Below are positions 11,681-25,338 of a stretch of DNA of 64,000 nucleotides, piece after piece; the first letter of the stretch is position 1; each line of letters begins with the position of its first letter. A program made the translations under genes and the position numbers. The stretch spans positions 1 through 64,000 of the forward strand of contig JAKIUF010000012.1 in assembly GCA_021647705.1 (NCBI GenBank). The letters run 5' to 3'. The notes beneath the pieces were generated by a model. The model saw only the letters and a list, made by a program, of their open reading frames with translations. It did not search any database and was not told the origin of the DNA. The stretch is from Gammaproteobacteria bacterium (GTDB lineage Bacteria > Pseudomonadota > Gammaproteobacteria > SZUA-152).

Positions 11681-11718
11681 GAGGGTCGGCCGGGATTCAA
11701 ACGAAATCCACCGGATTG
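11681..11718 (+). repeat. Left terminal inverted repeat of the Tn3-family transposon
   Basis: Starts GAGGGTCGGCCGGGATTC and continues ACGAAATCCACCG. Paired with 25339-25376 in the opposite orientation, with three mismatches over the first 33 bases. Directly preceded by the target duplication CATCT. Confidence 0.9.
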
Positions 11719-11762
11719 TCGGCTAACCTATTGTTAAATATATAAATTAAATAGAGCCCCCC

Positions 11763-12818
11763 CTATAAAGAGCGCTGCAATTGCTTGAATTGACCCTCGA
11801 TATTGGCTTTTTCCTGCATCAGAATCGTGTTTTCATTCCGTAATGCTTCGATTCTACCTTCTGCTTTATCGTTTGTGGCCGTTAACGCCTGGATTTTGTC
11901 CTGGCCAACAGCAGCCTGCTTTTCTAGTTGCATCAGTTGCTCTTCCTGGGTCTGGACTTTAATAGCGGACTCTTTATTGGCTTGCTGGGCTGCTTCGTAA
12001 CGGCCCACTAGATCCGCGAGACTCCGTTGCACTTGCAGGATTTCCTCGCTTTGTTGATGGTTCTGTTCGGTTAGAACTTTGTTGGTAGCCTGAAGTTGAT
12101 CACGTTTGGCCTCCAGCTTGGCAAAGCTGTTTTCTATTAGGCCCAGATTGTGCCGGAGGGCATGATTTTCTTGCTGTGTCTGTTTCAGAGCTTGTTCAGC
12201 ACTCAGGAGCTGGCGATCAAAGCCCGCACGCTCCTGTTCACGTTGTTTTTGGGCGGTATCACGGTAATGATCGAGGTTTTCCTGGGCCTGCTTCAGATGA
12301 GTGTTCAGCCGTACTACTTCCTGGCTCCTATCTTCCAGGCGTTGTTGTAAGGCTTCATGCTGAGTTTCTACTGTGGCATGAGCTTGCTGTTCCTTACGTA
12401 GATCTGTTTGTAGTGATTCGTTCTCATGCGTTAGTTTTTCAATGGATGCTTCGTATTTCGTCAGTTGTGACTCTAAATTGTCATTGGCTTTTTGGGTCTC
12501 CAGGGACTCGCGTTTTGCTGCTTCAAGCTCCCCCTTGGCCTGGGCTTGGACCGTTTCAATCCGCTCTGTGGCTTGCTGTTGCATACCTTCATAAAGGTTT
12601 TTAACGGATGCAAGCAGATCACTTGGCAACCCAGTTTGTTCGGCATCACTAATCCCCGTCTGCTTTGCCTTCCAAGCCTTCAATAGTGGCGCAATGGTGC
12701 TTTTGCTGCCGGTGCCCAGGATTACCCGTACCGCATCCACCGTGGGAACCTTGTCTTGCTGGGTGAGTTGAACAGCAGCTTTCGCCACATCCTGGTAGTT
12801 GACGCCGATTCGGGCCAT
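11763..12818 (-). CDS. tnpT: TnpT-like resolution accessory protein (KfrA-type DNA-binding domain plus long coiled coil)
   Basis: 351 aa. Residues 1-55 are a KfrA_N-type winged-helix domain (VNYQDVAKAAVQLTQQDKVP, VRVILGTGSKSTIAPLLKAW). The rest, from about 75 to the end, is almost continuous Gln/Glu-rich coiled coil. On its own this would suggest a plasmid KfrA protein. Its position next to a terminal repeat of a Tn3-family element and back-to-back with a tyrosine recombinase is the arrangement of tnpT/tnpS in Tn4651. There TnpT binds the resolution site and assists TnpS in cointegrate resolution. The name rests on that context. Confidence 0.75.
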   Translation of the reverse strand: MARIGVNYQDVAKAAVQLTQQDKVPTVDAVRVILGTGSKSTIAPLLKAWKAKQTGISDAEQTGLPSDLLASVKNLYEGMQQQATERIETVQAQAKGELEAAKRESLETQKANDNLESQLTKYEASIEKLTHENESLQTDLRKEQQAHATVETQHEALQQRLEDRSQEVVRLNTHLKQAQENLDHYRDTAQKQREQERAGFDRQLLSAEQALKQTQQENHALRHNLGLIENSFAKLEAKRDQLQATNKVLTEQNHQQSEEILQVQRSLADLVGRYEAAQQANKESAIKVQTQEEQLMQLEKQAAVGQDKIQALTATNDKAEGRIEALRNENTILMQEKANIEGQFKQLQRSL

Positions 12819-13026
12819 CCGAGTTTTCTCCCTTTCTGATTATTTCATAACGTATTATGTATTACGTTATATAACATAATAGTACAGAATTGCAATGGCT
12901 ATAATTTGAGATATATTAAGTTGCTATAAGCGATATTATCGTATGTTATGTCAGTGGCACCTAAAAAAAGCCTGCTCTACCCAGTACAAAACGAGTATTT
13001 AGAGCGTGTATGATGGAGAGATGAAA
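12819..13026. promoter_or_regulatory. Divergent tnpT/tnpS intergenic region, probable resolution site (rst)
   Basis: 208 bp, AT-rich. Contains an exact inverted repeat ATAACGTA-N8-TACGTTAT at 12847-12870 and further related words (TATAACATAAT at about 12869-12880, CGTATGTTATG at about 12940-12950). Two 8-bp arms around an 8-bp spacer suit a tyrosine-recombinase core site. In Tn4651 the resolution site lies in this interval, so a recombination site with embedded divergent promoters is the likely role. Confidence 0.6.
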
Positions 13027-14004
13027 ATGAATGAAATAACACCCGAAAACCGTGATGGACAGGCATTACGTAACGTTGAGACGGCCCCGTTGCCCGCAAC
13101 AGACCAGCATCGCTACATCCAGGCCGCCACATCGGACAACACCCGGCGAACCTACCAGTCGGCCATCCGTCATTTTGAGAGCTGGGGCGGGCTGTTGCCT
13201 GCCACTGAATCCATGGTGATTCGCTACTTGCTGGATCATGCAGACCGCCTCAATCCACGCACGTTGTCTTTGCGGCTTACAGCCCTGCGGCAATGGCACC
13301 GCCTGCAGAAATTTCCAGATCCCACCGACGGCGCAGAGGTGCGCAAGACTCTGAAGGGTATTGAGCGGCTACATGGACAACCTAAACGCAAAGCCAAGAC
13401 ATTTCGCTTAGAACATCTGGAGGCCATGATTGCGAGCCTGGGAGGATCGGAGGGTTTGAAAGCGGCGCGTGATCGCGCCCTGTTGCTGGTAGGGTTTTTC
13501 GGTGCTTTTCGTCGTAGCGAATTGGCGACACTTGAAGTTGAACACCTGGGCTGGGAACCAGAAGGGTTGATCATCACTCTCCCTCGATCTAAGACCGATC
13601 AAACCGGCGAAGGTAAAGTCAAAGCGCTTCCCGCAGGGGAAGGCCTTTTGTGCCCGGTGACTGCCTTGCGTCAATGGCTATCTATATCAGACATTGAACA
13701 AGGCTCTGTCTTTCGGGGTATCACTCGCTGGGGTGTGTTGAAGTCAAAAGCCCTGAGTCCGGCCAGTGTGAACCTGATTTTGAAAACGGTCGCCAAAAAC
13801 GCCGGACTGGATTTTGCGCCAGAGTTAAGTGGTCACAGTTTGCGCCGTAGCTTGGCTACCAATGCGCATCGTTTCGGGGCCACGTTTGAGTCTATCAAGC
13901 GCCAGGGTGGTTGGGTGCATGAAGGCACGGTGTGGGGATACATCGAAGAGGCGCAGCTGTTTGAGGACAATGCAGTGGCAGTGTTACTTGCCAAGGTTAC
14001 CTGA
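13027..14004 (+). CDS. tnpS: Tyrosine recombinase, TnpS-like cointegrate resolvase
   Basis: About 325 aa from the ATG at 13027; in-frame starts at 13006 and 13021 exist, but GGAGAG at 13014-13019 is best placed for 13027. The catalytic residues of the family are visible: Arg in FFGAFRRSELATL, then HSLRRS (His-x-x-Arg), and QGGWVHEGTVWGYI carrying the last His/Trp position and the Tyr nucleophile. An N-terminal SAM-like core-binding domain (NTRRTYQSAIRHFESW) precedes it. Expected to resolve cointegrates made by TnpA at the site between it and tnpT. Length matches TnpS of Tn4651-type elements. Confidence 0.8.
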   Translation: MNEITPENRDGQALRNVETAPLPATDQHRYIQAATSDNTRRTYQSAIRHFESWGGLLPATESMVIRYLLDHADRLNPRTLSLRLTALRQWHRLQKFPDPTDGAEVRKTLKGIERLHGQPKRKAKTFRLEHLEAMIASLGGSEGLKAARDRALLLVGFFGAFRRSELATLEVEHLGWEPEGLIITLPRSKTDQTGEGKVKALPAGEGLLCPVTALRQWLSISDIEQGSVFRGITRWGVLKSKALSPASVNLILKTVAKNAGLDFAPELSGHSLRRSLATNAHRFGATFESIKRQGGWVHEGTVWGYIEEAQLFEDNAVAVLLAKVT

Positions 14005-14007
14005 GCT

Positions 14008-14035
14008 AAGACGATTAGTTTTTCTTAATCGTCTT
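14008..14035. terminator. Bidirectional terminator between tnpS and the merR-type gene
   Basis: Perfect stem AAGACGATTA / TAATCGTCTT around an 8-base loop that includes TTTTTC. It lies between two convergent genes and overlaps the last codons of the MerR gene, so it can end transcription of both tnpS and the long leftward operon. Confidence 0.65.
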
Positions 14036-14420
14036 CAATGCCTTCAATAATCGGACAGCCATCTTCGCTGCCCGCACATAAGTTGCTGAGCAAGGTCAGT
14101 TCGTCGCGCAAGGCGGTAAGGTCCTGCAAATGGCTTTTAATTTCCGCAAGTTTCTTATGAGTCAATTCGCGTACCTCGCTGCGGGCATGTTGTGGGTCCT
14201 CGCGCATTTGTAAAAGGCTGGCGATTTCTGCCAGGGAAAAATTCATCTTCTGTGCACGTTGGATGAAGCTAAGTCGGGAAATATCTTTATCACTGTAGAT
14301 GCGGATACCCGAGGTCGTGCGCTTGATTTTTGGCAACAGTTTTATTTTTTCATAATAGCGCAGAGTATCCGCGCTCAAACCGAGCTGCTTGCTGATATCG
14401 CCGATGCGGCAGTCACTCAT
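14025..14420 (-). CDS. MerR-family metal-responsive regulator
   Basis: 131 aa, usual length for MerR regulators. N-terminal helix-turn-helix RIGDISKQLGLSADTLRYYE, dimer helix with ELTHKKLAEIKSHL, and a C-terminal metal-type loop LCAGSEDGCPIIEGIE. The Cys-x6-Cys-Pro pattern resembles the ZntR/CadR/PbrR branch. It is the last gene of an eleven-gene leftward operon and overlaps the upstream thioredoxin-fold gene by 8 bp. The two MerR-type palindromes at 21261-21276 and 21336-21353, in front of the first operon gene, are the obvious targets. This makes the regulator autoregulated at the far end of its own transcript. Confidence 0.88.
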   Translation of the reverse strand: MSDCRIGDISKQLGLSADTLRYYEKIKLLPKIKRTTSGIRIYSDKDISRLSFIQRAQKMNFSLAEIASLLQMREDPQHARSEVRELTHKKLAEIKSHLQDLTALRDELTLLSNLCAGSEDGCPIIEGIEDD

Positions 14421-14733
14421 CAGTTGCCCTGATTAATGTAGGTTTAAGCAATCGGGATTGAATGGCATCACGTAATGCTGTTTCACCCGGCATGCCCGTA
14501 AATACCAGCTGACCATTAATGGCAATACCCGGCGTTGCAACAATACCCAACGCCACAGCGTAGTCCAGTTCGTCCACGATGTTCACCAGTCGATAATCGA
14601 TCATGGCGCTAACCGATGCATCAAATTTCTTTAATACGCGTTCAAGCAACTGAAATGTTTTTCCGCATTTGTTGCAGCCAGGCGCAGAGAACACTTCTAT
14701 TTTTAACCTGTCGTTGAACCCCGCTTCTTGCAT
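14413..14733 (-). CDS. Small thioredoxin-fold protein with CNKC motif
   Basis: 106 aa. Begins with a beta strand and redox motif, KIEVFSAPGCNKCGKTFQLL, followed by NIVDELDYAVALGIVATPGI with the cis-Pro, and INGQLVFTGMP. This is the TM0996/MTH895-type small thioredoxin-like family (redox-active disulfide). No signal peptide, so cytoplasmic. A paralogue with CSKC lies at 18012-18311 in the same operon, sharing NI(V/L)DELDYAV.LG. It likely exchanges electrons with the CcdA-like protein at 16726-18030; the substrate is unknown. Confidence 0.85.
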   Translation of the reverse strand: MQEAGFNDRLKIEVFSAPGCNKCGKTFQLLERVLKKFDASVSAMIDYRLVNIVDELDYAVALGIVATPGIAINGQLVFTGMPGETALRDAIQSRLLKPTLIRATDE

Positions 14734-14735
14734 GT

Positions 14736-15692
14736 TTACTTATTTCCTGGCCGCCATTTTTGTACTTGATGATTGGCATAGTCTGCCACGAAAACACTGC
14801 CGTCGTCAGCCTCGGCCACCGCGATGCTGGTGTGCGTTGGGCCTGTGCTTTTGATTCCGAAGGCATTAAGAAATTTCCCGCTTGAGGTAAACTTTTGTAC
14901 CCGGTCATTATAAAAATCAGCGACAAACACATTACCGCTAGGGCCCACCGAAATGCCAGTAATCGTCGCGAACCAGCCGTTAAAGGAGCCAAAAATGTTC
15001 ATCGCCAACGGGCCGCCCCATTTGTGCTGCACGTTGCCATCGCTGCCAATCGCTAACACCCGGTCATTGTAACCATCGGCAATAAACAGCGTGCCGTCTT
15101 TCGCTAAAGCAACATCGGTGGGGTAACGCAACTTGCCGCCGAAGGTGCCCACCTCATTGGTCAAACCCCATTGGCGAACGAAACTACCATCGGCATGCAA
15201 CTGTTGCACACGCTGGGTTTTGAATTCGGCGACATACACGTCACCATTGCTTGCCACGGCAACACCACCGGGAATCGTAAACTCACCTGGGCCTGTTCCA
15301 GGTTTGCCAATACTACGCCGGTAGTCACCCGCCAGTGAAAACACTTTGATTTGATCGGCAAAATAATCCGCGACAAACACCTCACCATTGGCAATAGTGA
15401 GATTCATGGGTCGTTCCAGTTGCTCAGTACCAAACTGTCGTAGGGCGTTACCGTCAAGGTCAAACACCTGAATGCGATGATTTCGCCCATCGCTGACAAA
15501 CACTTCGTTACCACTTGCGGTTATGCCCGTGGGTTCATTGAATTGCCCCGGTGCCGTACCCAAAGTTCCCCAGGTTTTTGCCAGGGTATAAGCGGGTTCC
15601 TGCGGTGAAGGCATCCACAGGAAATAGACTGCACTAACAATCACAAGGATCGTCACCAGAAAAAAACTGCCCAACCTTTTTAACCATTTCAT
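14736..15692 (-). CDS. Membrane-anchored NHL-repeat beta-propeller protein
   Basis: 318 aa. One N-terminal membrane helix (FFLVTILVIVSAVYFLW) anchors a periplasmic propeller with about six NHL repeats, for example GNEVFVSDGRNHRIQVFDLD, GEVFVADYFADQIKVFSL, GDVYVAEFKTQRVQQL, GNVFVADFYNDRVQKF and GSVFVADYANHQVQKW. NHL propellers usually bind a partner protein or ligand and are not enzymes. The gene follows the MBL-fold gene by 42 bp and precedes the CNKC protein by 2 bp, so all belong to one transcript. The role in the system is unknown; a periplasmic binding scaffold is a reasonable guess. Confidence 0.85.
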   Translation of the reverse strand: MKWLKRLGSFFLVTILVIVSAVYFLWMPSPQEPAYTLAKTWGTLGTAPGQFNEPTGITASGNEVFVSDGRNHRIQVFDLDGNALRQFGTEQLERPMNLTIANGEVFVADYFADQIKVFSLAGDYRRSIGKPGTGPGEFTIPGGVAVASNGDVYVAEFKTQRVQQLHADGSFVRQWGLTNEVGTFGGKLRYPTDVALAKDGTLFIADGYNDRVLAIGSDGNVQHKWGGPLAMNIFGSFNGWFATITGISVGPSGNVFVADFYNDRVQKFTSSGKFLNAFGIKSTGPTHTSIAVAEADDGSVFVADYANHQVQKWRPGNK

Positions 15693-15734
15693 GTATTTTA
15701 TCCTTTTGTGTCGGCTGTATTTAAGATCGTTAGC

Positions 15735-16682
15735 TCACTCCCATTCCAGTTCCTGAAACACTTGATTGGCATTGCGCCCCTTGAGCATTTCATAACCGAT
15801 GAGTTTTTTGAATTTTGATTGATCCACCTTGCTGACTTCATCCAGGGTGCCGCCATTGTCGATCAGTTCCATGATTCCTTTGCGCAAGTCGAGCAGGTAA
15901 TTCAGGGTATCGGCGCGCGCCTGCTTGATGTCTGTTACGTGGCCATGGCCGGGAATGATGTGCGTGGGTTTGTGCGCGGCGATATGTTCGAAGGCCTTAA
16001 TCCAGCCAGCGGTTTTGGACATGGAGCCCACCGCCGGGATGCGTTCCACCGTGATCACATTTCCCGCAAAAAGGATGTGCTGTTTGGGTAGCCAGACCAT
16101 AGTATCGCCAGGTGTGTAAGCAGGGCCGATAAACATAAGTTGCAGCGTTGTGCCGCCAATAACAATTTCCTTGTTGGCCGCGAAGGTCTCATCGGCATAG
16201 ACTGCTTGTGTTCCCTTGGCGCCATCTTCTTTTATCAAAAAATCGAGCCGGTTGTGCAGGTCGTTGCTGCGCTCCTTTTGATTCTCTACGGCTGCGGTAG
16301 CCGCAATGATTTTTGCCCCCTGTTGTTTGAAATAACCATTACCCAGCCAACGATGATCTTCACTACCGGTATTGATCACCAGTTTCACCGGTTTGTCGGT
16401 AATCGATTTGATCGCCGCGTGAATACGTTGCGCACCTTTGAAGCTGGCACCAGGGTCGATGAGCACCACGCTATCGCGAGTGATAACCACGCCGAAGGTG
16501 GCGTTGGTGCCCAGATCCTTTTCTGTCATGGGGCCGCGCTTGCCCACCAGAGCGTAAACGTTATCGCTGACTTTTTGCAGCTCTAGGGCGTTTTCATCGG
16601 CCAGACTATTTGTTGTTATGGTCAATATCGACAGCAACATAATGCTGGCAATAAAGAATTTTACATTTTTTATCACTTTCAT
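15735..16682 (-). CDS. Periplasmic metallo-beta-lactamase-fold protein with an altered metal site
   Basis: 315 aa with a signal peptide (FFIASIMLLSILTITTNSLA). The fold is recognised by NATFGVVITRDSVVLIDPGA, the C-terminal GPAYTPGDTMVWLP and HIIPGHGHVTD. It is closest in pattern to the SoxH-related, PQQ-associated MBL hydrolases. The canonical HxHxDH metal motif is replaced: the segment reads LVINTGSEDHRWLGNGYF, leaving only the final Asp-His. In the next motif the usual His is Tyr (GPAYTPGD). Classical two-zinc hydrolysis is therefore unlikely; a one-metal or binding role is possible. It sits between the CcdA-like and NHL genes. Confidence 0.85.
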   Translation of the reverse strand: MKVIKNVKFFIASIMLLSILTITTNSLADENALELQKVSDNVYALVGKRGPMTEKDLGTNATFGVVITRDSVVLIDPGASFKGAQRIHAAIKSITDKPVKLVINTGSEDHRWLGNGYFKQQGAKIIAATAAVENQKERSNDLHNRLDFLIKEDGAKGTQAVYADETFAANKEIVIGGTTLQLMFIGPAYTPGDTMVWLPKQHILFAGNVITVERIPAVGSMSKTAGWIKAFEHIAAHKPTHIIPGHGHVTDIKQARADTLNYLLDLRKGIMELIDNGGTLDEVSKVDQSKFKKLIGYEMLKGRNANQVFQELEWE

Positions 16683-16725
16683 TTCTTATTCCTTCATTTT
16701 TTTATAATTGTGAAAAATCTCAGCA

Positions 16726-18030
16726 TTAAATGATGAACAGGTATTCGTTTAACAGATACAGGCCGGTAAAAATAAGCGTCACCCCGGCGAGGACTTCCAG
16801 CTTCTTTTGATGATGTGAAGCCATGCGCAAGGATTCCAGCCAGCCCATGCTCCAGGCACCGATGATGATGGGAATGCTGCGCCCGATGGCAAAGGCCAGT
16901 AACAGGCCCGCACCAAAGGGCACCGAACCGATGGCGGCGCTGGCGGTCAACGTGACCAGTAATGCTGGTGTGCAAAACGGACACACCGCCACGGAAAAAG
17001 GAATGCCCAGCAGAAAGGCCCCCCAGGGGCCGGAGACTTTTTTACCGCGCATGGCCAACCACGGCAGCCGAACCTTTAACCAGCCGGGCCACATCAGGCC
17101 AAGCAGGATCAACAATGGTCCGAGCAGCAAACCCCATTCGCGGCCCATGAGCTTGTGCACCCATTCACCACCCAATGCGGCGATGGCGCCCAGCAAGGTG
17201 TGAGTGAGCAGCATACCCAACACAAAGGCACCGCCCAGTTGCACTGCGGTTTTTTTCGAGTGGTTATCAGACAGGGTGACATAGGCCAGCACCACGGGGA
17301 TGGAAGCGAAGGACACCGGATTAAAACTGAATACCAGTCCCGCGAGAAAGCCCGCACCGATACCCAACAGACTGGCTTCTGTCAGCATGGCTTTAAGACT
17401 GGCAGGGTCAATGTTGATCATCGGTGGTAGTAACGCTATTGCCAAACCGTAAAGCAGAAAGGCGGTAATAAACGGACTGATCTTGGCGGCCCGTTGCAAC
17501 AGGTCAGCGCCATCGGCGTGAATGCCTTTGAATGCACTTATGGCCATGGGCAGGGTAAACAGACCCGCAAATAACAGGCCGGCCAGCACCGCCATGTTGA
17601 TGGAGTCCACGGTCATCGAAATGCCGGCCACCACAATAACCAGTGGAATAGTGCACGCAGGTAACGTAAGCCCTAACTGTACGGCATGGGGTAGTCGTTT
17701 GCTGCCAGGTAGTAGTCTATAAAAAGTAAGATGTGGGATGGGCAGATAAACAAAACGCGAAACGATGTAGAGGGTGGCCATCGCCGACAGGATGATGCTC
17801 GGCGTATAGCTTCCCCATGCCGGGGCATCGATGAAGACGACAACGGAAACCAGCAAACCGGTCAATAACACACTACGTGACAGCCACACCGTGAGCAGGC
17901 TGCGGCAACATCCCGTGTTCGATTGTTGATGGGCGCGCGCCGAGAACAGGGTGTGCGTGGCGATGGTGCAGGGTTCAAAAAATGCTAGCGCACCGAGCAG
18001 AGCGGCCATGGTCAATAACAACATACCCAT
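16726..18030 (-). CDS. Tandem CcdA/DsbD-like membrane protein
   Basis: 434 aa with about twelve hydrophobic segments in two homologous halves. The first half opens with FFEPCTIATHTLFSARAH; the second has GLVFSFNPVSFASIPVV and VAVCPFCTPALLVTLTA. CcdA/DsbD proteins carry reducing equivalents across the inner membrane through a pair of membrane Cys residues. Here, Cys in EPC of half one and the CPFC of half two could form such a pair. The start overlaps the CSKC thioredoxin-like gene by 19 bp, strongly suggesting that cytoplasmic protein as electron donor. Recipients would be the periplasmic proteins of the operon. Confidence 0.8.
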   Translation of the reverse strand: MGMLLLTMAALLGALAFFEPCTIATHTLFSARAHQQSNTGCCRSLLTVWLSRSVLLTGLLVSVVVFIDAPAWGSYTPSIILSAMATLYIVSRFVYLPIPHLTFYRLLPGSKRLPHAVQLGLTLPACTIPLVIVVAGISMTVDSINMAVLAGLLFAGLFTLPMAISAFKGIHADGADLLQRAAKISPFITAFLLYGLAIALLPPMINIDPASLKAMLTEASLLGIGAGFLAGLVFSFNPVSFASIPVVLAYVTLSDNHSKKTAVQLGGAFVLGMLLTHTLLGAIAALGGEWVHKLMGREWGLLLGPLLILLGLMWPGWLKVRLPWLAMRGKKVSGPWGAFLLGIPFSVAVCPFCTPALLVTLTASAAIGSVPFGAGLLLAFAIGRSIPIIIGAWSMGWLESLRMASHHQKKLEVLAGVTLIFTGLYLLNEYLFII

Positions 18031-18311
18031 GCGTTGACGACTCTCGTTCCTGCGTTTAAACGGCCTTCCAGTTCAGCGCGCAATTTATTGGCCGACGGCA
18101 GCGTGACAAACACCAGCTCATCATCAATGGCGATGGCCGGCGTGGACAGCACGCCCAACTGCACCGCGTAATCCAGTTCATCGAGAATATTCACCTCGCG
18201 CCACTGGATGGCATCGCCACCGATTTCCTCGACCAGCTTTTGCAGCACCGACTTGGCGTGACTGCATTTACTGCAACCGGGCGAAGAAAAGACTTCAACT
18301 TTGATATTCAT
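18012..18311 (-). CDS. Small thioredoxin-fold protein with CSKC motif
   Basis: 99 aa. KVEVFSSPGCSKCSHAKSVL gives the redox motif, and VNILDELDYAVQLGVLSTPA the cis-Pro region, as in the paralogue at 14413-14733. It ends in VCCY, two extra vicinal Cys at the C-terminus that the paralogue lacks and that could bind a soft metal. Cytoplasmic by absence of a signal peptide. It overlaps the CcdA-like gene by 19 bp, and the GAG-type ribosome binding site of its own ATG follows 8 bp after the HMA gene. Confidence 0.82.
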   Translation of the reverse strand: MNIKVEVFSSPGCSKCSHAKSVLQKLVEEIGGDAIQWREVNILDELDYAVQLGVLSTPAIAIDDELVFVTLPSANKLRAELEGRLNAGTRVVNAWVCCY

Positions 18312-18319
18312 AATGACTC

Positions 18320-18631
18320 CTAGTGAACCTGTAACTCACCCGGCGTAAACCCGGCGTCTTCAATAATCTTGCGCACCTGTGTTTCAAAAACGGCTGCATC
18401 AATGGTTGTGTCATCGGCCATGACGATCTCGGCACGTTTGTCTTCCAGGCTGACTTTCACCTGTTTTACGCCGGGCAGTTTCTTCAGGCCCTTTTCCACA
18501 CTGTTAACACAGAATTCGCAAACCATGCCGGTGACGCCGATTTCTACCACTTGTCCATTAGCTGCATTCACAGAAAAAGCAGACAATGGCAACAACAGCA
18601 GGCCCGCGAAAAATAAAGTAATTTTTTTCAT
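18320..18631 (-). CDS. Periplasmic MerP-like HMA-domain protein
   Basis: 103 aa. Signal peptide MKKITLFFAGLLLLPLSAFS then a heavy-metal-associated fold: VEIGVTGMVCEFCVNSVEKG with the metal-binding CxxC, LPGVKQVKVSLEDKRAEIV, and a final IIEDAGFTPGEL. MerP-type proteins bind a soft metal ion in the periplasm and pass it to a membrane transporter. The next gene upstream encodes a MerT-like membrane protein. A second HMA protein at 20018-20329 has CPFC instead of CEFC. The bound metal cannot be named from sequence. Confidence 0.85.
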   Translation of the reverse strand: MKKITLFFAGLLLLPLSAFSVNAANGQVVEIGVTGMVCEFCVNSVEKGLKKLPGVKQVKVSLEDKRAEIVMADDTTIDAAVFETQVRKIIEDAGFTPGELQVH

Positions 18632-18658
18632 TTCATTGATCTCCCAAAATAGTAAGAA

Positions 18659-19078
18659 TTAAATATCCAGCCAGATGCGCAACGGCAATGCGACATAGGC
18701 GGCAAAAAAACCGATGCCCCAGATCACCACCGAACTCCAGTACACCCGCCGGTTCCACACCTGAGTTCGATTGCACAGGCGACCCAGTTCAGGGTCCGTG
18801 GGACAACTGCGACCCGGCCGGTACATGAGCCAACCCGATAGGGCTAACATGGCGCCGGAGCCCAGAAAGACCCAGATCTTGTGCATGCTCAGGGTGATCA
18901 GCAGCGGAAAACTGCTGGTGAGTGCGGCAACCGTAGCACCCATGCCCAGGGTCACCAGGGTGATGGGTAACGCGCAGCAGATAAGCGTACCGGTGGAGGC
19001 AAACAGACTCAGCCAGGTGATACCGGCCTGTTTATTTTCAGTGTTGTTTAACGTCGTTGTCAGTGTTGTGTCATTCAT
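18659..19078 (-). CDS. MerT-like small membrane protein with vicinal cysteines
   Basis: 139 aa with three to four membrane helices. The first helix contains the Cys-Cys pair in ASTGTLICCALPITLVTLGM, like the pair used by MerT to accept metal from MerP. A loop with SCPTDPELGRLCNRT holds two more Cys. The general layout fits mercuric-transport-type proteins, though I would not call it MerT on sequence alone. Paired with the MerP-like protein 27 bp downstream. With no mercuric reductase nearby, the metal's fate is unclear. Confidence 0.65.
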   Translation of the reverse strand: MNDTTLTTTLNNTENKQAGITWLSLFASTGTLICCALPITLVTLGMGATVAALTSSFPLLITLSMHKIWVFLGSGAMLALSGWLMYRPGRSCPTDPELGRLCNRTQVWNRRVYWSSVVIWGIGFFAAYVALPLRIWLDI

Positions 19079-19089
19079 ACTTAAAGTCC

Positions 19090-20013
19090 TTAAAAATTAA
19101 AACGCACACCGGCGCGGGCGATGGTATCCAGTTCCAGTGCGGTGCCGTTGAGGTTTTGCCTAACGGGAAATTGTAGGGCAGCTTCGGCTATCCAGCGGCG
19201 GGTGACGTACTGCAAACCCGGCGCCAGTAACACGCGTGTGCCGCCGGAGTTGGCATCGTCCGTTCCGTTGATGGTGTTTTTCTGCTGCGTGCTGACATTC
19301 GCTTCCAGTACCGCATAAACAAATCCGGGCACGCCACTGCCCAGTTCACGCGGCCAGATGCGTTTTTGCAACGAGGCATCTATTTGCAACACATCACCTA
19401 CTTCAAAATTATTGGCTGCGTTGTTGATGCGAACACTCAACTGGGCATCCAGTTGATAGTCCAGGGTTTGTCGTGTCACCACCAGGCCGCCAAACACATC
19501 CCACGAGCCAGTGCCGGTTTGTAACGGCGGCGGCAGTGTGCCGAGGCTATCACTCGCCTGGTCTTCACCGGTGGGGGCTTTTATGCCTGCGAAAGCCGCC
19601 AGCCGCAGTGTTTTTCCCGCTTCGTTTTTCTGTCGAAAAATGTAGCGTGCAAAGGCGCTAACGTCACCTAAGCTAGCATTGCTACGACTCACCGTACCCG
19701 CGCCCACATTCATGGAAAGATCGATGTCCCGATAAGGCAGGATGCCAAACAGAGCCAATTTGTTATTGACGCCATAGACCAATGCCGTTGCACTTATGGT
19801 TTCTGTGCGGTCACGTTGTGTCCCGCTGGGATCTTCACCGGACTGCATAACTATAAATTGCTGGCGAAACAAAAATTCTTCCTTGGCCACCGGCAGTGCG
19901 GTATTAAACGTGATGGGTGCAGCCTGAATATTGCTGCTGACTGCGAGCAACAATGCAGACAGACCGCCTGTCACGCACCCGTACTTTATGCCGGTGTGTC
20001 GCCAGAACTTCAT
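19090..20013 (-). CDS. Outer-membrane channel-like protein (phenol MetA-deg/transporter family)
   Basis: 307 aa with a signal peptide (SALLLAVSSNIQA). The mature part is rich in alternating strands and ends in Phe (ARAGVRFNF), the outer-membrane insertion signal. Segments such as NKLALFGILPYRDIDLSMNV, LGDVSAFARYIFRQKNEAGK and GLQYVTRRWIAEAALQFPV fit the beta-barrel 'transporter' family related to MetA of phenol degradation. It overlaps no neighbour but lies 4 bp from the HMA gene upstream and 11 bp from the MerT-like gene downstream. Its cargo is unknown. Confidence 0.7.
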   Translation of the reverse strand: MKFWRHTGIKYGCVTGGLSALLLAVSSNIQAAPITFNTALPVAKEEFLFRQQFIVMQSGEDPSGTQRDRTETISATALVYGVNNKLALFGILPYRDIDLSMNVGAGTVSRSNASLGDVSAFARYIFRQKNEAGKTLRLAAFAGIKAPTGEDQASDSLGTLPPPLQTGTGSWDVFGGLVVTRQTLDYQLDAQLSVRINNAANNFEVGDVLQIDASLQKRIWPRELGSGVPGFVYAVLEANVSTQQKNTINGTDDANSGGTRVLLAPGLQYVTRRWIAEAALQFPVRQNLNGTALELDTIARAGVRFNF

Positions 20014-20017
20014 TGGA

Positions 20018-20329
20018 TTAGCGCGCCTTTTCCGTCACGCTTTTCATGGTGAAGCCGGAATCATGGATGATGGTTTTCAATTCGTCTTCCTTGAAAGTTT
20101 TACTTTCGTTCGTTTTGACAATGACCAGTCCTTTTTGAAGATCGACGTCTACACTTTCCACACCTTCGGTCTTGGTAAATTTTTTCTCGATGCCGTAGGC
20201 GCAGAAGGGGCAGGCGAGACCATCGACACGCATGTCGTATTGCGTACCGCCGGCAAAGCTGAAGCTGCTCCATAACAGGGCGATGCTGGCTAAAAACAGG
20301 GTGATACTTTTAATTATTGAATATTTCAT
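20018..20329 (-). CDS. Periplasmic HMA-domain protein with CPFC motif
   Basis: 103 aa from the ATG at 20329, chosen because GGAGAA precedes it and a signal peptide follows (SITLFLASIALLWSSFSFA); an open frame extends further upstream without such features. The HMA fold is DMRVDGLACPFCAYGIEKKF, EGVESVDVDLQKGLVIV and IIHDSGFTMKSV. CPFC is unusual compared with the GMTCxxC of typical metal chaperones, and is closer to a redox-type CxxC. The 57-bp gap to the upstream outer-membrane gene and the same direction place it in the operon. Confidence 0.82.
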   Translation of the reverse strand: MKYSIIKSITLFLASIALLWSSFSFAGGTQYDMRVDGLACPFCAYGIEKKFTKTEGVESVDVDLQKGLVIVKTNESKTFKEDELKTIIHDSGFTMKSVTEKAR

Positions 20330-20385
20330 GTTGGTTCTCCAAAGTGTTACTGGTTTAGAAAAGTGCTGCCTAATTGCGGTTAGTT

Positions 20386-21204
20386 TTAAAGATGCCACTC
20401 AAACGAGGCTTTGAAACGATAATCAGATTCATCCTGTGTACCGTTCAAATCGCTGGCAATGGGAATCTGGATGCCGGACTTAATGGCGAAGTTACGCGTA
20501 GTCCAGAAAATGCCGGGTGAAATGAACCACTCGGTGCCGCCGCTGTTGGCCAGGGAGGTTCCATTAAACTCTGCCTTGTCAGCAATCTCGCCGTTGAGTT
20601 CCAGCAGCCATACCGTATCCGGTTTGGTGTATTCTGGCGGGGTGGGACGCCAGCCCACCACAAAATCCACCAGCCATTTATTCCCTTTCTGAAAACCGGC
20701 GTCGTTTTTACCGGGCAACACATAACGCGCACTGGCCCAGCGATATTTTTCAAGGCCTTCATAACCGTAGGTCAGGCCGACGATGACATCGGTGGCACCG
20801 TTGCCCAAGGGTGGGTCAGCCTTTTCATCGCCGTTTTCGCCATTAATGGCTAACATCACTGCGGCAGATTCCTGCAAGCCCAGGGTGTCTTCGCGCCAGA
20901 AACGGTATTTGGTGAACAGATTAATGTCAGACAAGCCGCTGGATGATTCCGCGCCTTCATCTTTGAAGGCATAAGGCACTTCGATGCCCGCCGCCCAATC
21001 GCCGGTAATGCCGTAAACCAGTTCCAGCCCCAGTTCGCTTTCGTCACCGGCTTTTTCCCGGTGCACCTCGATGGCGGCTTCAATGCCGTCCTTGAACAGC
21101 ACGTGGGGACCGATACCGAACACGGGATCGTGTGCCAGGGCATTGCCACTGACCGTAAGCAGTAGCGCGCTTGCGGCCATAATGTGCCAAGTCATTGATT
21201 TCAT
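20386..21204 (-). CDS. Outer-membrane beta-barrel protein, first gene of the MerR-controlled operon
   Basis: 272 aa from the ATG at 21204 (AGGA 9 bp upstream). Signal peptide (IMAASALLLTVSGNALA) followed by AHDPVFGIGPHVLFKDGIEA. Later strands include GLSDINLFTKYRFWREDTLG and GGTEWFISPGIFWTTRNFAI; the C-terminus FKASFEWHL ends as outer-membrane barrels often do. Proteins of this kind are often annotated only as transporter or copper-resistance-like barrel. Position directly after the operators suggests it is the most strongly expressed member. Confidence 0.7.
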   Translation of the reverse strand: MKSMTWHIMAASALLLTVSGNALAHDPVFGIGPHVLFKDGIEAAIEVHREKAGDESELGLELVYGITGDWAAGIEVPYAFKDEGAESSSGLSDINLFTKYRFWREDTLGLQESAAVMLAINGENGDEKADPPLGNGATDVIVGLTYGYEGLEKYRWASARYVLPGKNDAGFQKGNKWLVDFVVGWRPTPPEYTKPDTVWLLELNGEIADKAEFNGTSLANSGGTEWFISPGIFWTTRNFAIKSGIQIPIASDLNGTQDESDYRFKASFEWHL

Positions 21205-21250
21205 GTGATAAATCCTGTTATTCCGCTGCAAAGTATTTGTTCAGTGATGG

Positions 21251-21285
21251 TATTGACTCACTGGAGTGCACTCCAGGTTCAATCT
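21251..21285 (-). promoter_or_regulatory. MerR-type operator proximal to the operon
   Basis: The perfect 16-bp palindrome CTGGAGTGCACTCCAG (21261-21276), read leftwards, is preceded by TTGAAC as a -35 and followed 19 bp later by a weak GTCAAT. The first operon gene starts 47 bp downstream. The dyad inside an over-long spacer is the mark of MerR-regulated promoters. Confidence 0.7.
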
Positions 21286-21326
21286 TTTTTTGCCTTTATT
21301 TGCAATAATATTTTGAAACTGAACAC

Positions 21327-21357
21327 AGGCTACAGCCTGGAGCTAACTCCAGGTCAA
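21327..21357 (-). promoter_or_regulatory. Second MerR-type promoter/operator with 19-bp spacer
   Basis: Read leftwards: TTGACC (-35, 21352-21357), 19 bp containing the dyad CTGGAG-TTAG-CTCCAG, then TAGCCT (-10, 21327-21332). The 19-bp spacing is characteristic of promoters activated by MerR proteins twisting the DNA. It lies about 70 bp upstream of the proximal operator, giving tandem control. Confidence 0.75.
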
Positions 21358-21585
21358 GTATTAATGATGATTTATTTACTGTGGGATTCAGATTTCCGTC
21401 GCATGGACGTTGCAGTTGCCAGGAAAGATAACTGTAGAGATCAACAAAGATATAAAATTGAATATCTGATCTGCAGGCGAGGCTTGATACGCTAAAGGGT
21501 TCGCGTACGTAGGTCTTCAAGGGTTTTAAGCAGTACTCACTGTACGCCTATTTATCGGTGCTTCGGTAAGTAAACCTGCTTCGAT

Positions 21586-21948
21586 TTAGGCCACTAATCG
21601 CACATGAGCATCAATTACATCCCAGGGAGCAACCAATAACCCCTCTTCGGTACGCTGGATAAGACCAACCTCCTCCAGGGCGCTGGCATCGACGTGAACA
21701 TTTTTATAGTCACGCTCCAGTTGTTTCGACAATGCTCGGACACTCAACGGCCCATGCTGACGCAATATTTTCATCAACTCCAGGCGCTTGGGTGTCAGCA
21801 CCGAAGCCAGCATGGAAAAATCCTCGAAGTTGAGGTGTATTTCCGCTTGTTCGATCTCACCAGCCTCGGCCTTATGCCAAGCTTCGGTGAAACGTTCAAA
21901 GCCACGATCCGCATCTTCCACGCCAATATGAATATGTTGTTTACTCAT
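21586..21948 (-). CDS. tumA: TumA-type antitoxin (winged-helix DNA-binding)
   Basis: 120 aa from the ATG at 21948, which has GAGGTG upstream. A winged-helix region PKRLELMKILRQHGPLSVRA, LSKQLERDYKNVHVDASALE and GLIQRTEEG is that of the HVO_A0114/MarR-like antitoxins paired with TumE toxins. It overlaps the toxin gene by 8 bp, toxin first. TumE/TumA pairs are known passengers of Tn3-family transposons, where they sit beside the transposition genes as here. Confidence 0.8.
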   Translation of the reverse strand: MSKQHIHIGVEDADRGFERFTEAWHKAEAGEIEQAEIHLNFEDFSMLASVLTPKRLELMKILRQHGPLSVRALSKQLERDYKNVHVDASALEEVGLIQRTEEGLLVAPWDVIDAHVRLVA

Positions 21949-22234
21949 GCTGTTCACCTCGTAAGCGTTTAATATCCACCTTAAAATCCTGGATCAATTT
22001 TTCAACCGAGATGAAGGTATACGGTGCTTCCTGGTTACCTTCATGCCGGTGATCGCCTTTACCCCGTTCATTGTCATAACGCACCAGACACATGTCAGAA
22101 TGGCCGTAATATAGCCGGTACTTAAGGCCATGTGGCCTCTCGCTATCCGTGTCCGGTAGACGCCAAATCACCATCTCGCGAATGGCCCCATCGGCGTAGA
22201 TGTATTTATCCCGGAAGATTAATTGTGCCGACAT
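21941..22234 (-). CDS. tumE: TumE-type toxin (DUF6516)
   Basis: 97 aa. The family core is clear: LKYRLYYGHSDMCLVRYDNE followed by RGKGDHRH and YTFISVEKLIQDFKVDIKRL. TumE toxins are paired with a downstream winged-helix antitoxin, as seen here. The RYDNERGKGDHRH stretch is the conserved, probably catalytic, segment; the cellular target of the family is not something I can state. Located between the passenger operon and tnpA inside the transposon, probably acting as an addiction device for it. Confidence 0.82.
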   Translation of the reverse strand: MSAQLIFRDKYIYADGAIREMVIWRLPDTDSERPHGLKYRLYYGHSDMCLVRYDNERGKGDHRHEGNQEAPYTFISVEKLIQDFKVDIKRLRGEQHE

Positions 22235-22245
22235 ATGGCTAAGTG

Positions 22246-22269
22246 TACCATATGGTGTAATTTATGGTA
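22246..22269. promoter_or_regulatory. Inverted repeat between tumE and tnpA
   Basis: TACCATA-N10-TATGGTA at 22246-22269 lies 11 bp upstream of the toxin start and 60 bp upstream of tnpA, in the divergent intergenic region. A likely TumA operator that could also affect tnpA transcription. Confidence 0.5.
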
Positions 22270-22329
22270 TGTTAACCAGCGTATTTTGTTCGGTGCCGTT
22301 GTTTTAAAGGGATATCTACAGAGCCACGC

Positions 22330-25317
22330 ATGAGCAGCGTTAACGAGACCGCCTATCCGCGCTTCAAATCGGAGCTAACTGATGAAGAGCTTCGGGACAT
22401 CTACACCCCGACAGCGGCGGAATGCGCTTTTGCCCAGCGTCACCGTTCGCAACGTTTATCCCGCTTGGCGTTACTAGTACTTCTCAAGACCACTCAACGT
22501 CTCGGTTATGTCGTCAAACTTGCTGATGTTCCACTGCCTATTCTGAACCATATTGCCGAACACGCGAGGATGAACAACATCCAGAAACAAAATATGACCC
22601 GGTATGACCAAGCTGGTACCCGGCAGCGATTACTTGATCTGGTGCGTAAGCAAGTAGGCATTAATCCTTTTACTCGGGATGGTGAAAAACTCGTTGAGAA
22701 AACGGCAGAGTTGGCGGCCGAAACCAAACAAGAACTCGCAGATATTATCAACGTTGTTATCGAGCTGCTGATTCAACAACGTTTTGAACTGCCTGGTTTC
22801 AGCACACTGGCAAGAGCGGCCAGGCGCGCCCGCACAACGGTAAATGAACAATATTTCCAATCACTTTACGATGCCCTCACAAAATCAGTAAAAACTGAGA
22901 TTGATGATTTGTTGTCGGTGCAGACCGGTGGGACGCAAAGTGGGTGGCATCAGCTCAAGCGTGAACCCAAACGTCCTACCAACAAAGAAGTCAGAAGCTA
23001 TCTGCAACACTTGAAATGGTTGAAATCCTGGGCACACCAGTTACCTAGTATCGATCACATTCCCATTTCCAAATGGCGTCAATATGTATTGGAAGCACGT
23101 TCCCTAGACGCAGCAGAATTGAAAAAAACCAAAGCCACTAAACGCTATGCACTGGTCATCATTCTAATCCACGCTCAGCTACGCAGGGCGATGAATGACA
23201 CTGTGGAAATTTTTATTCGCAGAGTGAGGAGTCTGCATACCAAAGGGGATGAACGACTCCAACAGTATCACCTGGAGCGCACCAAGCTCGTGGAAAAATT
23301 GATTAGCCAGTTTCGTGACGTACTGGAGGCATTTCAAGAGGGCACGACGGATAAAGCACGGGTTGCCGGTATTACTGCCGCCCTGAAAGAGGAACCAGAA
23401 CAAATACTTGCTGAGTGTGATGCGCACATGGCCTATGCGGGAAACAATTATTATCCTTTTCTATTACCACTTTACAAAATGCAGCGGCCGTTACTGTTCA
23501 ATTGCCTTGAGCTGATCAACGTCAAATCGACGACAAATGACCAGTCACTTATCCGGGCAATCCATCTTATCCTGGAGCACCGGAACAGCCACAAGGAAAT
23601 GTTATCCCTTGTCGGCGATGGCAGCGCCAGAAGAAACCAGATAAACATACATTGGGTACCTGAAAAGTGGCGTAAATTGGTGACAGGTAAAAAAGTACAT
23701 GATTCATCTATCCATGAAGTTCACCGAAAGTATTTTGAATTGTGTGTCCTTACCCATGTAATGAGAGAGCTTAAATCCGGTGATCTTTTTGTGGCGGAAA
23801 GTGAACACTATAACGACTACCGGGATCAGTTGATCGATTGGGAAACATTTGAGGCACAAATTTCTGAATATGGTGAGATGGTTGAATTACCTATGCAGCC
23901 ACAAGCCTTTGTAGACAACTTAAAACAACAGCTTACAGAAAAGGCACACCAGATAGATAGTCAATACCCTGTTAACGAATACCTTGAATTGACCAGTGAT
24001 GGCATCGTCATTCACAAACACACGAAAGACAATAAACCAGAAGCCTTATCCTTTGTGGATCAACAGATTTCTAAAAAGTTACCAGCAACCAATATTTTGG
24101 ATCTGTTGGTTAATGCTGAGGGCTGGCTAGATCTGCATCGACATTTTGGACCATTGTCGGGTTTTGAGGCCAAAGTGGATGATCCACGAAAGCGATTTAT
24201 TACAACGTTGTTTTGTTATGGCTGCAATCTTGGGCCCACTCAAACAGCCCGTTCTGTCAAAGGGCTTAGCCGTAAACAGGTGGCCTGGTTGAATCTACGT
24301 CATATCACGGAGGAGCGCTTGGAGAAGGCGACCGTGCAGGTAATCAATGCCTATAATAAATTTCTGTTGCCAAAATTTTGGGGAAGTGGAAAATCTGCTT
24401 CGGCAGATGGCACCAAATGGAACCTGTACGAACAGAATCTCTTAACGGAATATCACATTCGTTATGGAGGCTATGGCGGCATTGGCTATTACCATGTGTC
24501 GGATATGTATATCGCCTTGTTTAGTCATTTCATTCCATGTGGCGTCTATGAAGCTATTTACATCCTCGATGGCTTGATCAAAAACGAATCGGACATCCAG
24601 CCCGATACGATTCACGGTGACACTCAGGCACAAAGTGCACCGGTCTTTGGACTGGCATATTTATTGGGTATTAATCTCATGCCGCGCATTCGAGGTCTGA
24701 AAAAACTCATTTTTTTCAAACCCGACAAAACCATACGTTATGAGCACATCAACAAGCTATTCGGTGAAAGCATCAACTGGCGACTGATTGAAACTCATGT
24801 GCCCGATATGCTGCGCATAGTACTGTCGATCAAAGCTGGGAAAATTACACCGTCAACAATTTTAAGACGCCTCGGTACCTATAGTCGCAAGAATAAATTG
24901 TACTTTGCGTTCCGTGAGCTGGGCCGAGCAGTGCGAACCATTTTCCTGTTGGATTACATCGGTGATGTCGAGTTACGTAAAACCATTCAGGCCGCAACGA
25001 ATAAAAGTGAGGAGTTCAATAACTTCACCAAATGGCTGTTTTTTGGCGGCGAAGGCATCATTGCGGAAAACATCCGGCATGAACAGCGGAAGGTCATTAA
25101 ATATAACCAGTTAGTGGCCAACCTCGTCATTCTGCACAACGTTGATGCGATGACAAGGGTTGTAAAGATCCTACAGAAGGAAGGACATCCAATTGATGCA
25201 GAAATCCTAGCAGGTTTGTCTCCGTACAGAACTGAGCATATCAATCGATTTGGCGATTATACGTTGAATCTGGATAGAAAAATTCGCCCCATGGACTACA
25301 AAATCAAATTATTGTAA
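22330..25317 (+). CDS. tnpA: Tn3-family transposase
   Basis: 995 aa, normal length for the family. The N-terminal part YPRFKSELTDEELRDIYTPT and the DNA-binding region LLVLLKTTQRLGYVVKL are typical. DDE catalytic residues are visible as Asp in SADGTKWNL, Asp in IHGDTQAQSAP and Glu in the region EEFNNFTKWLFFGGEGIIAE. It makes cointegrates with 5-bp target duplication. The gene reads towards the right inverted repeat and ends 22 bp before it. No stop or frameshift is seen, so with both ends and a resolvase the transposon should be mobile. Confidence 0.95.
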   Translation: MSSVNETAYPRFKSELTDEELRDIYTPTAAECAFAQRHRSQRLSRLALLVLLKTTQRLGYVVKLADVPLPILNHIAEHARMNNIQKQNMTRYDQAGTRQRLLDLVRKQVGINPFTRDGEKLVEKTAELAAETKQELADIINVVIELLIQQRFELPGFSTLARAARRARTTVNEQYFQSLYDALTKSVKTEIDDLLSVQTGGTQSGWHQLKREPKRPTNKEVRSYLQHLKWLKSWAHQLPSIDHIPISKWRQYVLEARSLDAAELKKTKATKRYALVIILIHAQLRRAMNDTVEIFIRRVRSLHTKGDERLQQYHLERTKLVEKLISQFRDVLEAFQEGTTDKARVAGITAALKEEPEQILAECDAHMAYAGNNYYPFLLPLYKMQRPLLFNCLELINVKSTTNDQSLIRAIHLILEHRNSHKEMLSLVGDGSARRNQINIHWVPEKWRKLVTGKKVHDSSIHEVHRKYFELCVLTHVMRELKSGDLFVAESEHYNDYRDQLIDWETFEAQISEYGEMVELPMQPQAFVDNLKQQLTEKAHQIDSQYPVNEYLELTSDGIVIHKHTKDNKPEALSFVDQQISKKLPATNILDLLVNAEGWLDLHRHFGPLSGFEAKVDDPRKRFITTLFCYGCNLGPTQTARSVKGLSRKQVAWLNLRHITEERLEKATVQVINAYNKFLLPKFWGSGKSASADGTKWNLYEQNLLTEYHIRYGGYGGIGYYHVSDMYIALFSHFIPCGVYEAIYILDGLIKNESDIQPDTIHGDTQAQSAPVFGLAYLLGINLMPRIRGLKKLIFFKPDKTIRYEHINKLFGESINWRLIETHVPDMLRIVLSIKAGKITPSTILRRLGTYSRKNKLYFAFRELGRAVRTIFLLDYIGDVELRKTIQAATNKSEEFNNFTKWLFFGGEGIIAENIRHEQRKVIKYNQLVANLVILHNVDAMTRVVKILQKEGHPIDAEILAGLSPYRTEHINRFGDYTLNLDRKIRPMDYKIKLL

Positions 25318-25338
25318 TAAATATCAACAGCTTGAGTT

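Follow-up and report, generated by a model that had tools for sequence, protein, structure and literature searches.

A transposon-borne, MerR-controlled operon with a thioredoxin–CcdA2–MerR core: a candidate soft-metal resistance system

Many mercury resistance (mer) operons are carried by Tn3-family transposons. Their genes have been surveyed (PMC8261052, in its accessible part), and thiol redox proteins appear in other accounts available as excerpts: ArsEFG confers resistance to roxarsone and nitarsone (PMC9144182, citing Chen et al. 2019), in two Mesorhizobium strains Zn and Cd raise the expression of a CcdA/DsbD-type gene downstream of cadA more than 4-fold (PMC3668242), TrxA- and CcdA-region proteins are tabulated as annotated mercury transporters in actinomycetes (PMC12195606), and a review covers the selenoprotein operons SAO and Tso, of which Tso includes a DsbD fusion (PMC13188914). 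Here we analyse an eleven-gene operon on a 64,000-nucleotide stretch of a Gammaproteobacteria bacterium (assembly GCA_021647705.1, contig JAKIUF010000012.1, positions 1 to 64,000), hereafter the window. The open reading frame (ORF) list and domain searches bear out the initial annotation, made from the letters of the DNA, which had described eleven tightly packed leftward genes: from the last gene to the first, a MerR-family regulator, a small thioredoxin-fold protein (Trx2), an NHL propeller, an MBL-fold protein, the membrane protein CcdA2, a second thioredoxin-fold protein (Trx1), a MerP-like HMA protein (HMA2), a MerT-like membrane protein, an outer-membrane protein (OMP2), a second HMA protein (HMA1) and a further outer-membrane protein (OMP1). 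They fill the minus strand at 14025-21231, with intergenic gaps of -19 to +43 bases (Table 1). A core of Trx, CcdA2 and MerR recurs in other genomes, and soft-metal handling is well supported. We tentatively propose, at somewhat less than even confidence, that this is a mobile MerR-regulated thiophilic-metal resistance operon, most likely for Hg(II), acting in addition to a MerA whose gene lies elsewhere.

Which of these genes belong together? Homologues of the MBL occur in contexts as varied as sox clusters, ars-like clusters and records named quinoprotein relay; it was rejected as a family marker, and neighbourhoods were therefore anchored on CcdA2. The loci considered here (L numbers) are the best 80 of 141 relatives, from a CcdA2-based scan of genome contigs with two peptide patterns. 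All 80 are titled as metagenome-assembled genomes, many on short contigs; they include near-copies (e.g. L129 and L176) and overlap with another collected locus set (e.g. L122 and L060). Genes were counted by tblastn in the same-strand run around CcdA2, and rows with internal stops were excluded from alignments. Trx is present in 77 of the 80 loci, a MerR of the same kind in 59, HMA in 43, the MerT-like gene in 29 and OMP in 25, against 9 for MBL, 5 for a CopZ-like gene and 4 each for NHL and DsrE. In the three loci without Trx the contig starts 1 to 75 bases before the CcdA2 match. Of the 80 loci, 44 are well flanked, with 5 kb or more ahead of the match and 1.5 kb or more behind it; among these, Trx is found in all 44, MerR in 36, HMA in 27, and MerT-like and OMP in 17 each, with MBL in 3, CopZ-like in 2, NHL in 1 and DsrE in 3. 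The core is Trx–CcdA2–MerR; HMA, MerT-like and OMP genes form a common metal-capture part, and MBL and NHL are rare extras. One locus, L104, holds OMP1, HMA1, OMP2, MerT-like, Trx1, CcdA2, NHL, Trx2 and MerR, nine of the eleven genes in the order of the window, at 59-88% identity over eight labelled rows, and given this locus the gene set of the window is more than a chance association. The concern that the genes might prove scattered and unrelated elsewhere is thus laid to rest for the core, with MBL and NHL turning out to be optional. Locus titles are mostly gammaproteobacterial (Thiogranum, Thiohalobacter, Sedimenticola, Thiotrichaceae, Chromatiales), with some Thiobacillus, Burkholderiales and Hydrogenophilales and single Phycisphaerales, Marinimicrobia and Chlorobiota; the HyVt labels in some titles presumably denote hydrothermal vents. 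In L118, L146, L155 and L183 a CopZ-like gene separates CcdA2 from MerR, a variant arrangement of the core; that of L155 encodes a protein with 161.8 bits to NF047645 (cut-off 100). An HAE3/MMPL-like transporter lies near the core on the same strand in L107 (2810-7275; scanned, under cut-off) and L113 (2877-5180; by resemblance), and L107 has a UbiE-like methyltransferase too.

The initial annotation had called CcdA2 a tandem CcdA/DsbD-like protein, a description that stands by sequence for its C-terminal half. DsbD_TM (PF02683) covers residues 225-429 only (53.9 bits, cut-off 27.1), residues 221-426 match Thermus CcdA (PDB 5vkv) in sequence at E 4.7e-5, and this half is a homologue of the CcdA/DsbD membrane domain. 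The positions of both CcdA conduit cysteines are changed in it, the first to Val239 and the second to Phe352; C350 and C353 flank the second position, so that a CPxC motif is found instead of the conduit pair. C21, C126, C350 and C353 are invariant in all 19 full-length members. CPxC is also constant in 112 C-half rows, most of which were collected only if they held 'CP' and are not independent, and six of the eight single-domain relatives listed have no cysteines beyond the CPxC pair. In fold comparison with 5vkv the C half reaches Z 7.1 over 187 residues, a middling value below the telling level on which we base no claim. For the N half neither Pfam nor a scan of 72,556 plasmids at E 1e-3 gave a match, and despite a confident model (pLDDT 92) there is no clear structural counterpart: Foldseek returned nothing at E 0.001 for this half or for the whole CcdA2 model (pLDDT 78, pTM 0.56). 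By eye, its C21 and C126 stand in CcdA-like motifs. Judged by their residues, the C half, a CcdA by homology, is no canonical conduit, and the N half, of uncertain kinship, seems to carry a CcdA-like pair. In a second look at residues 1-205, NqrE/Rnf subunits matched the greater part of the domain with Z about 6, too weak to claim, and CcdA was not among the 50 structural rows listed. In NqrE/Rnf subunits an Fe-S site lies within the membrane, flanked by cysteines from two helices.

In the alignments of MerR, MerT-like and Trx, rows were chosen at at least 50, 45 and 50% identity to the window respectively, a choice that favours conservation. The CxKC motif and the Thr-Pro of Trx are kept in 75 of 75 rows, and C115 and C122 of the regulator in all 59 (the window and 58 others). 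The regulator falls below every NCBIfam equivalog cut-off, with CueR and ZntR models outscoring the MerR model. Its position 80, the counterpart of Ser77 in CueR and of the first Cys in MerR and in ZntR, is Arg in 41 rows, Lys in 14 and Cys in 4. According to the accessible text of PMC11591864, the selectivity position of the MerR family is Ser in all monovalent sensors and Cys in divalent ones, and Ser77 is said in an excerpt of PMC10028694 to bar divalent ions. The operon's own regulator thus has two of the three Hg-binding cysteines of MerR, with Arg80 at the first position, and lacks the Ser of the CueR-type monovalent sensors. The four Cys-type regulators are exactly those of L118, L146, L155 and L183, the loci with the CopZ-like gene. 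In a quick tree the core regulators lie on one side of a branch (SH-aLRT 99), apart from classical MerRs, plasmid relatives, CueR and ZntR. The clade breaks the Ser/Cys rule at CueR position 77.

An operator-like site with the MerR layout, TTGACCTGGAGTTAGCTCCAGGCTGTAGCCT, precedes the first gene, and a second perfect dyad lies between the two (Table 1). The search patterns were written from the window site, for which an exact match is no test, and the independent evidence is therefore the recurrence in other loci. TGGAG-N4-CTCCA is found in 55 of the 80 loci (73 sites, against 1 in a Markov shuffle), and 49 have it paired with TTGAC in the 3.5 kb upstream of CcdA2, either strand being counted; some loci have two operator-like sites, as L149 does at 2049 and 347 bases before the gene. 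The longer CTGGAG-N4-CTCCAG, a pattern chosen after the site was seen, matches twice in the window against 0.03 expected in shuffles, and the operator is the sole match in the 4.4-Mb host genome at up to one mismatch. Its arms are identical to those of the E. coli zntA promoter, which has a 20-bp spacer, and differ from those of copA. The dyads CCGTAC-N4-GTACGG or CTGTAC-N4-GTACAG were present in 11 of the 80 loci, 9 of them with MerA or a classic MerT. Taken together, the operator-like site, its recurrence upstream of the core and the zntA-like arms argue for the MerR control that had been proposed.

Which metal is handled? Capture of a soft metal, as initially annotated, agrees with the CxxC motifs of the HMA proteins and with the CC (34, 35) and C92/C102 pairs of the MerT-like protein, invariant in 34 of 34 rows; with its CC in the first transmembrane helix and a second cysteine pair, this protein is of MerT type despite 18.8 bits to Pfam MerT (cut-off 32.9). 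MerA is absent from the eleven genes by ORF, Pfam and NCBIfam inspection, and the earlier statement that there is no metal reductase is right as regards the operon. It does not extend to the cell, since the host genome carries a classic merT-merP-merA-merR set on contig C15 (L192 6214-9093), whose MerA has 474 aa and no N-terminal HMA domain and whose MerR has the usual Cys. It does not extend to related loci either: MerA lies in the available flanks of 14 of the 80, and in the same run as the core in L111, L153, L174 and L178. Of the 14 MerAs, 13 show both the active-site motif and the terminal CCAG, that of L133 being split in two, and the one of L178 is divergent; L113 has a further MerA fragment, outside the count. 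MerA or a classic MerT was found in 20 of the 80 loci, weakly in L160 and L178. A copper ATPase or multicopper oxidase is present at at least 45% identity in 7, or in 13 when all weaker matches and a heavy-metal-domain motif are admitted, and the mercury and copper sets do not overlap. We also compared 369 genomes of the class, 25 of them carriers (a CcdA2 match at E 1e-20, fragments and C-half-only matches included), with thresholds of E 1e-125 for merA, 1e-60 for copA and acr3 and 1e-100 for soxB, in statistics that ignore kinship. merA is present in 20 of the 25 carriers and 53 of the 344 other genomes (odds ratio 22, p 2e-11). The association persists among genomes positive for SoxB and copA (merA in 15 of 19 carriers against 12 of 39), as does that of copA among genomes positive for SoxB and merA (15 of 18 against 12 of 30). 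acr3 shows no enrichment (9 of 25 against 123 of 344, odds ratio 1.0), which disfavours an arsenic reading. Mercury leads, with copper genes also enriched.

How might such a system work? The secreted HMA proteins would catch the metal through their CxxC motifs and hand it over to the MerT-like protein, which would carry it inwards. Trx1 and Trx2, which lack a signal-peptide-like start by eye and are for this reason taken as cytosolic, may reduce CcdA2, whose N-half pair C21/C126 would pass electrons outwards. These electrons might keep the HMA CxxC as a metal-binding dithiol that the oxidising periplasm would otherwise close, and the CPxC of the C half could be a membrane relay site for metal or thiol. 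Metal that reaches the cytosol would then lead the regulator to switch on the whole operon, itself included. The relay through CcdA offered in the initial annotation is a fair proposal in this light, weakened by the change of both conduit-cysteine positions and by the lack of a visible periplasmic thioredoxin. A bolder version, in which the self-regulated Trx–CcdA2–MerR unit is an undescribed class of metal defence that spends cytosolic reducing power on capture or expulsion of soft metals, through a membrane protein built of a two-cysteine half and a CPxC half derived from CcdA, and in which the sensor is of a new MerR class with a basic residue in place of Cys or Ser for selectivity and a metal species or complex outside the monovalent/divalent rule, seems to us conceivable and rather doubtful.

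A number of observations weigh against a mercury operon driven by an outward thiol relay. Of the 44 well-flanked loci, 27 have no MerT-like gene, so that metal uptake is not the core function. TGGAG-N4-CTCCA is absent from 25 of the 80 loci, among them L128, L148, L158, L160, L166, L177 and L178, where 10 kb of upstream sequence is available. The third Cys of Hg/Zn/Cd sensors is missing in 55 of the 59 regulator rows. The N half of CcdA2 bears a weak resemblance to the C half or CcdA profiles (hhalign probability at best 36%) and to 5vkv (Foldseek E 2.2, TM 0.39), and no periplasmic thioredoxin was seen among the eleven proteins, signal peptides being judged by eye; by the same inspection, no cysteine pair beyond the CxxC of HMA1 and that of HMA2 occurs in a protein with a signal-peptide-like start. 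In the genome comparison the copA-type multicopper oxidase (21 of 25 carriers against 100 of 344, odds ratio 12.8) and soxB (22 of 25 against 127 of 344, odds ratio 12.5) are enriched as well, and part of the mercury link may therefore be habitat or kinship. RND pump genes, found in 18 of 81 neighbourhoods, and their membrane-fusion partners, found in 13, are untyped for substrate and outside the copper count, so that copper and silver markers are probably undercounted.

The same residues of CcdA2 would also suit a permease for metal or metalloid, as proposed for ArsE and ArsG: the CxKC of the cytosolic Trx proteins would bring up the metal, and export would go through the CPxC within the membrane. 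ArsG is the best NCBIfam model for CcdA2, and Trx1 matches the ArsE/MTH895 family, at scores far under the cut-offs (59.6 bits against 200 for NF040495; 38.6 against 62). Val239 and Phe352 at the conduit positions and a CPxC kept in all 19 full-length rows fit export, as do the single-domain relatives on Nitrobacter, Afipia and Paraburkholderia plasmids, which have the CPxC cysteines only and adjoin genes for MerT/MerP, MFS, a P-type ATPase or merB. The N half, present with its invariant cysteine pair in all 19 aligned full-length members, would be superfluous in a simple permease, and the flat distribution of acr3 speaks against a metalloid of the arsenic kind. We regard export as possible, if improbable on balance; the cysteine pattern and an N half without clear relatives bring it close in our confidence to the relay proposed above.

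The metal itself might be copper(I) or silver, or zinc, cadmium or lead; in that case the thiol module would shield thiols or recycle a chaperone for the metal. The enrichment of copA among carriers, the CopZ-like metallochaperone gene of the four variant loci, the untyped RND pumps, the zntA-like operator arms, the better scores of CueR and ZntR models and the Zn- and Cd-induced gene 3' of cadA in Mesorhizobium (accessible part of PMC3668242) all point this way. Mercury markers are nevertheless the more frequent in the loci (20 of 80 against 7, or 13 at the loosest, RND pumps uncounted), and a sensor with mostly neither Ser nor Cys at the selectivity position suits monovalent ions as little as divalent ones; we consider this family of metals unlikely. 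A sulphur relay, in which sulfane sulphur is the signal for the two-cysteine MerR and persulfide is handled by Trx, CcdA2 and the SoxH-like MBL in the manner of SoxW, SoxV and SoxH, would explain why the MBL best matches SoxH-related models, why MBL homologues of 28-38% identity lie in or beside sox clusters, why DsrE genes occur in the run of 4 of the 80 loci and why 22 of the 25 carriers have SoxB. It sits poorly with a host genome that has no SoxB match at E 1e-100, with eleven genes in which Pfam and NCBIfam find no SoxYZ, with runs in which HMA (43) and MerT-like (29) genes far outnumber MBL (9) and DsrE (4), and with operon-type MBLs short of more metal ligands than the other homologues aligned. 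We hold it to be very improbable, and retain mercury resistance with an outward thiol relay as the preferred, tentative account.

Further features of the operon and its surroundings are listed in Table 1; the Pfam scan covered ten of the eleven proteins (MerR left out) and the NCBIfam scan all eleven. Both Trx proteins belong to Thioredoxin_3 in these scans. The MBL, annotated as an MBL-fold protein with a DHRW motif, is indeed related to SoxH (best models at 167.7 bits, cut-off 280), with the usual zinc ligands degenerate. The usual MBL zinc motif is HxHxDH; the operon protein aligns TGSEDH there, without HxH, and a Tyr replaces a later His, so that the ligands of a canonical zinc hydrolase are incomplete. 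Operon-type MBLs, those of the window, L066, L107, L112, L114, L119, L121, L147 and L180, have lost further ligands in the alignment (AH to AY, NY or SY, and DH to DL or DQ except in the window and L180), and most other homologues aligned retain TG.QDHRW, AH.PGD and PGHG. The operon-type MBL is possibly a pseudoenzyme. Homologues also occur in ArsR–permease–thioredoxin–MBL–OsmC clusters (L024, L025) on Pseudosulfitobacter and Hoeflea plasmids. An anti-phage role was considered and dropped, four proteins giving no match to PADLOC at 1e-5.

Table 1. Positions in the window of the operon, its control sites and the transposon that carries it.
Feature	Position	Strand	Basis
Second perfect dyad CTGGAG-N4-CTCCAG, between operator and first gene	21261..21276	-	pattern scan
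MerR-type promoter/operator TTGACC-TGGAG-N4-CTCCA-...-TAGCCT, 19-bp spacer	21327..21357	-	pattern scan
OMP1, PF13557 outer-membrane protein, first gene	20386..21231	-	Pfam
HMA1, secreted HMA protein, CPFC	20018..20398	-	Pfam, signal-peptide-like start by eye
OMP2, PF13557 outer-membrane protein	19090..20013	-	Pfam
MerT-like membrane protein, C34-C35 + C92/C102	18659..19078	-	Pfam, alignment
HMA2, secreted MerP-like HMA protein, CEFC	18320..18631	-	Pfam, NCBIfam
Trx1, small thioredoxin-fold protein, no signal peptide, CSKC, Thr-Pro conserved	18012..18311	-	Pfam, alignment
CcdA2, 434 aa: N half 1-205, C half 206-434	16726..18030	-	Pfam, alignment
Secreted SoxH-related MBL, degenerate metal site, optional member	15735..16682	-	NCBIfam, alignment
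NHL propeller, N-terminal membrane anchor (by eye), optional member	14736..15692	-	Pfam, NCBIfam
Trx2, second small thioredoxin-fold protein, CNKC	14413..14733	-	Pfam
MerR-family regulator, last gene; C115/C122 kept, Arg80 at metal-selectivity position	14025..14420	-	NCBIfam, alignment
Tn3-family transposon, 13,696 bp	11681..25376		terminal inverted repeats, target duplication, TnpA
KfrA_N protein	11763..12818	-	domain search
Tyrosine recombinase	13006..14004	+	domain search
TnpA transposase, 995 aa	22330..25317	+	PF01526, 498 bits

That all the genes ride on one transposon, as the initial annotation held, is correct: the operon lies within matched inverted repeats of 33 bp (11681-11713 and 25344-25376, 91% complementary) and a 5-bp target duplication, CATCT, flanks both ends, which together with the DDE_Tnp_Tn3 transposase are the marks of the Tn3 family. 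From their positions we take the tyrosine recombinase to be TnpS-like and the KfrA_N protein to be TnpT-like. Between operon and transposase, on the minus strand at 21586-22234, lie a TumE toxin (PF20126) and an HVO_A0114/MarR-type protein, probably its antitoxin. Conjugation genes adjoin the transposon (TraI_2 relaxase 25793-27655, TraD-like 32524-34677, TraC 39929-42721), which sits beside or within an integrative conjugative element. In L133 (Acidiferrobacterales) the operon is near similar-looking conjugation genes, by eye, and on the Marinobacter salarius plasmid pSMR5 (L199) an HMA1 homologue adjoins genes for a P-type ATPase and a CcdA as well as an Hg(II)-type merR, with a Tn3 transposase nearby that is 61% identical to TnpA of the window.

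What are the implications of such an operon? It shows thiol redox proteins recurrently tied to soft-metal resistance, in mostly sulphur-oxidising bacteria. With one shared operator the regulon can be tested, and a sensor clade off the Ser/Cys rule opens metal selectivity in the MerR family to direct test. CcdA2 is a natural case for asking whether membrane proteins of the CcdA type can transport metals in addition to electrons. Neither a description of the gene set nor a test of its function is among the matches listed in the open full-text literature, which may leave out papers describing it; the earlier statement that no described system was known agrees with this. The operon shares with mer operons (e.g. 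the copy of the host on contig C15, L192) a MerR-family regulator, a MerP-like HMA protein, a MerT-like protein with CC and C..C and carriage on a Tn3-family transposon. It differs from them in having no MerA, in a MerT-like protein far from the Pfam model, in a regulator of a separate clade, in an operator (CTGGAG-N4-CTCCAG, 19-bp spacer) unlike the CCGTAC-N4-GTACGG or CTGTAC-N4-GTACAG with 20-bp spacer of mer genes in other loci collected here, and in the addition of Trx, CcdA2, OMP, MBL and NHL. With arsEFG, as far as the excerpted sources describe it, it shares a thioredoxin fold of the ArsE/MTH895 type, encoded beside a membrane protein that fits ArsG best among the NCBIfam models, and departs from it in its scores far under the cut-offs and in the extra N half of CcdA2. 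The suppressor of copper sensitivity (Scs) system has periplasmic thioredoxin-fold partners, none of which is seen here. The likeness to Scs, in the accessible part of its literature, lies in thiol oxidoreductases that act in metal tolerance and in the DsbD-like ScsB. Compared with Thermus CcdA (5vkv), CcdA2 has both conduit cysteine positions changed, a CPxC added and about 205 further residues in its N half. MerR–Trx–CcdA clusters on plasmids of Nitrobacter hamburgensis and Afipia carboxidovorans (with MerT and MerP) and of Paraburkholderia fungorum (without them) have the same three-gene core, with a C half 51-58% identical to that of CcdA2; their CcdA is single-domain, their MerR is Cys-type and outside the core clade, and a P-type ATPase or MFS transporter replaces OMP, MBL and NHL. 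The operon is best called a variant of the MerR-controlled soft-metal resistance operon, in which the sensor and the membrane protein each break a known rule.

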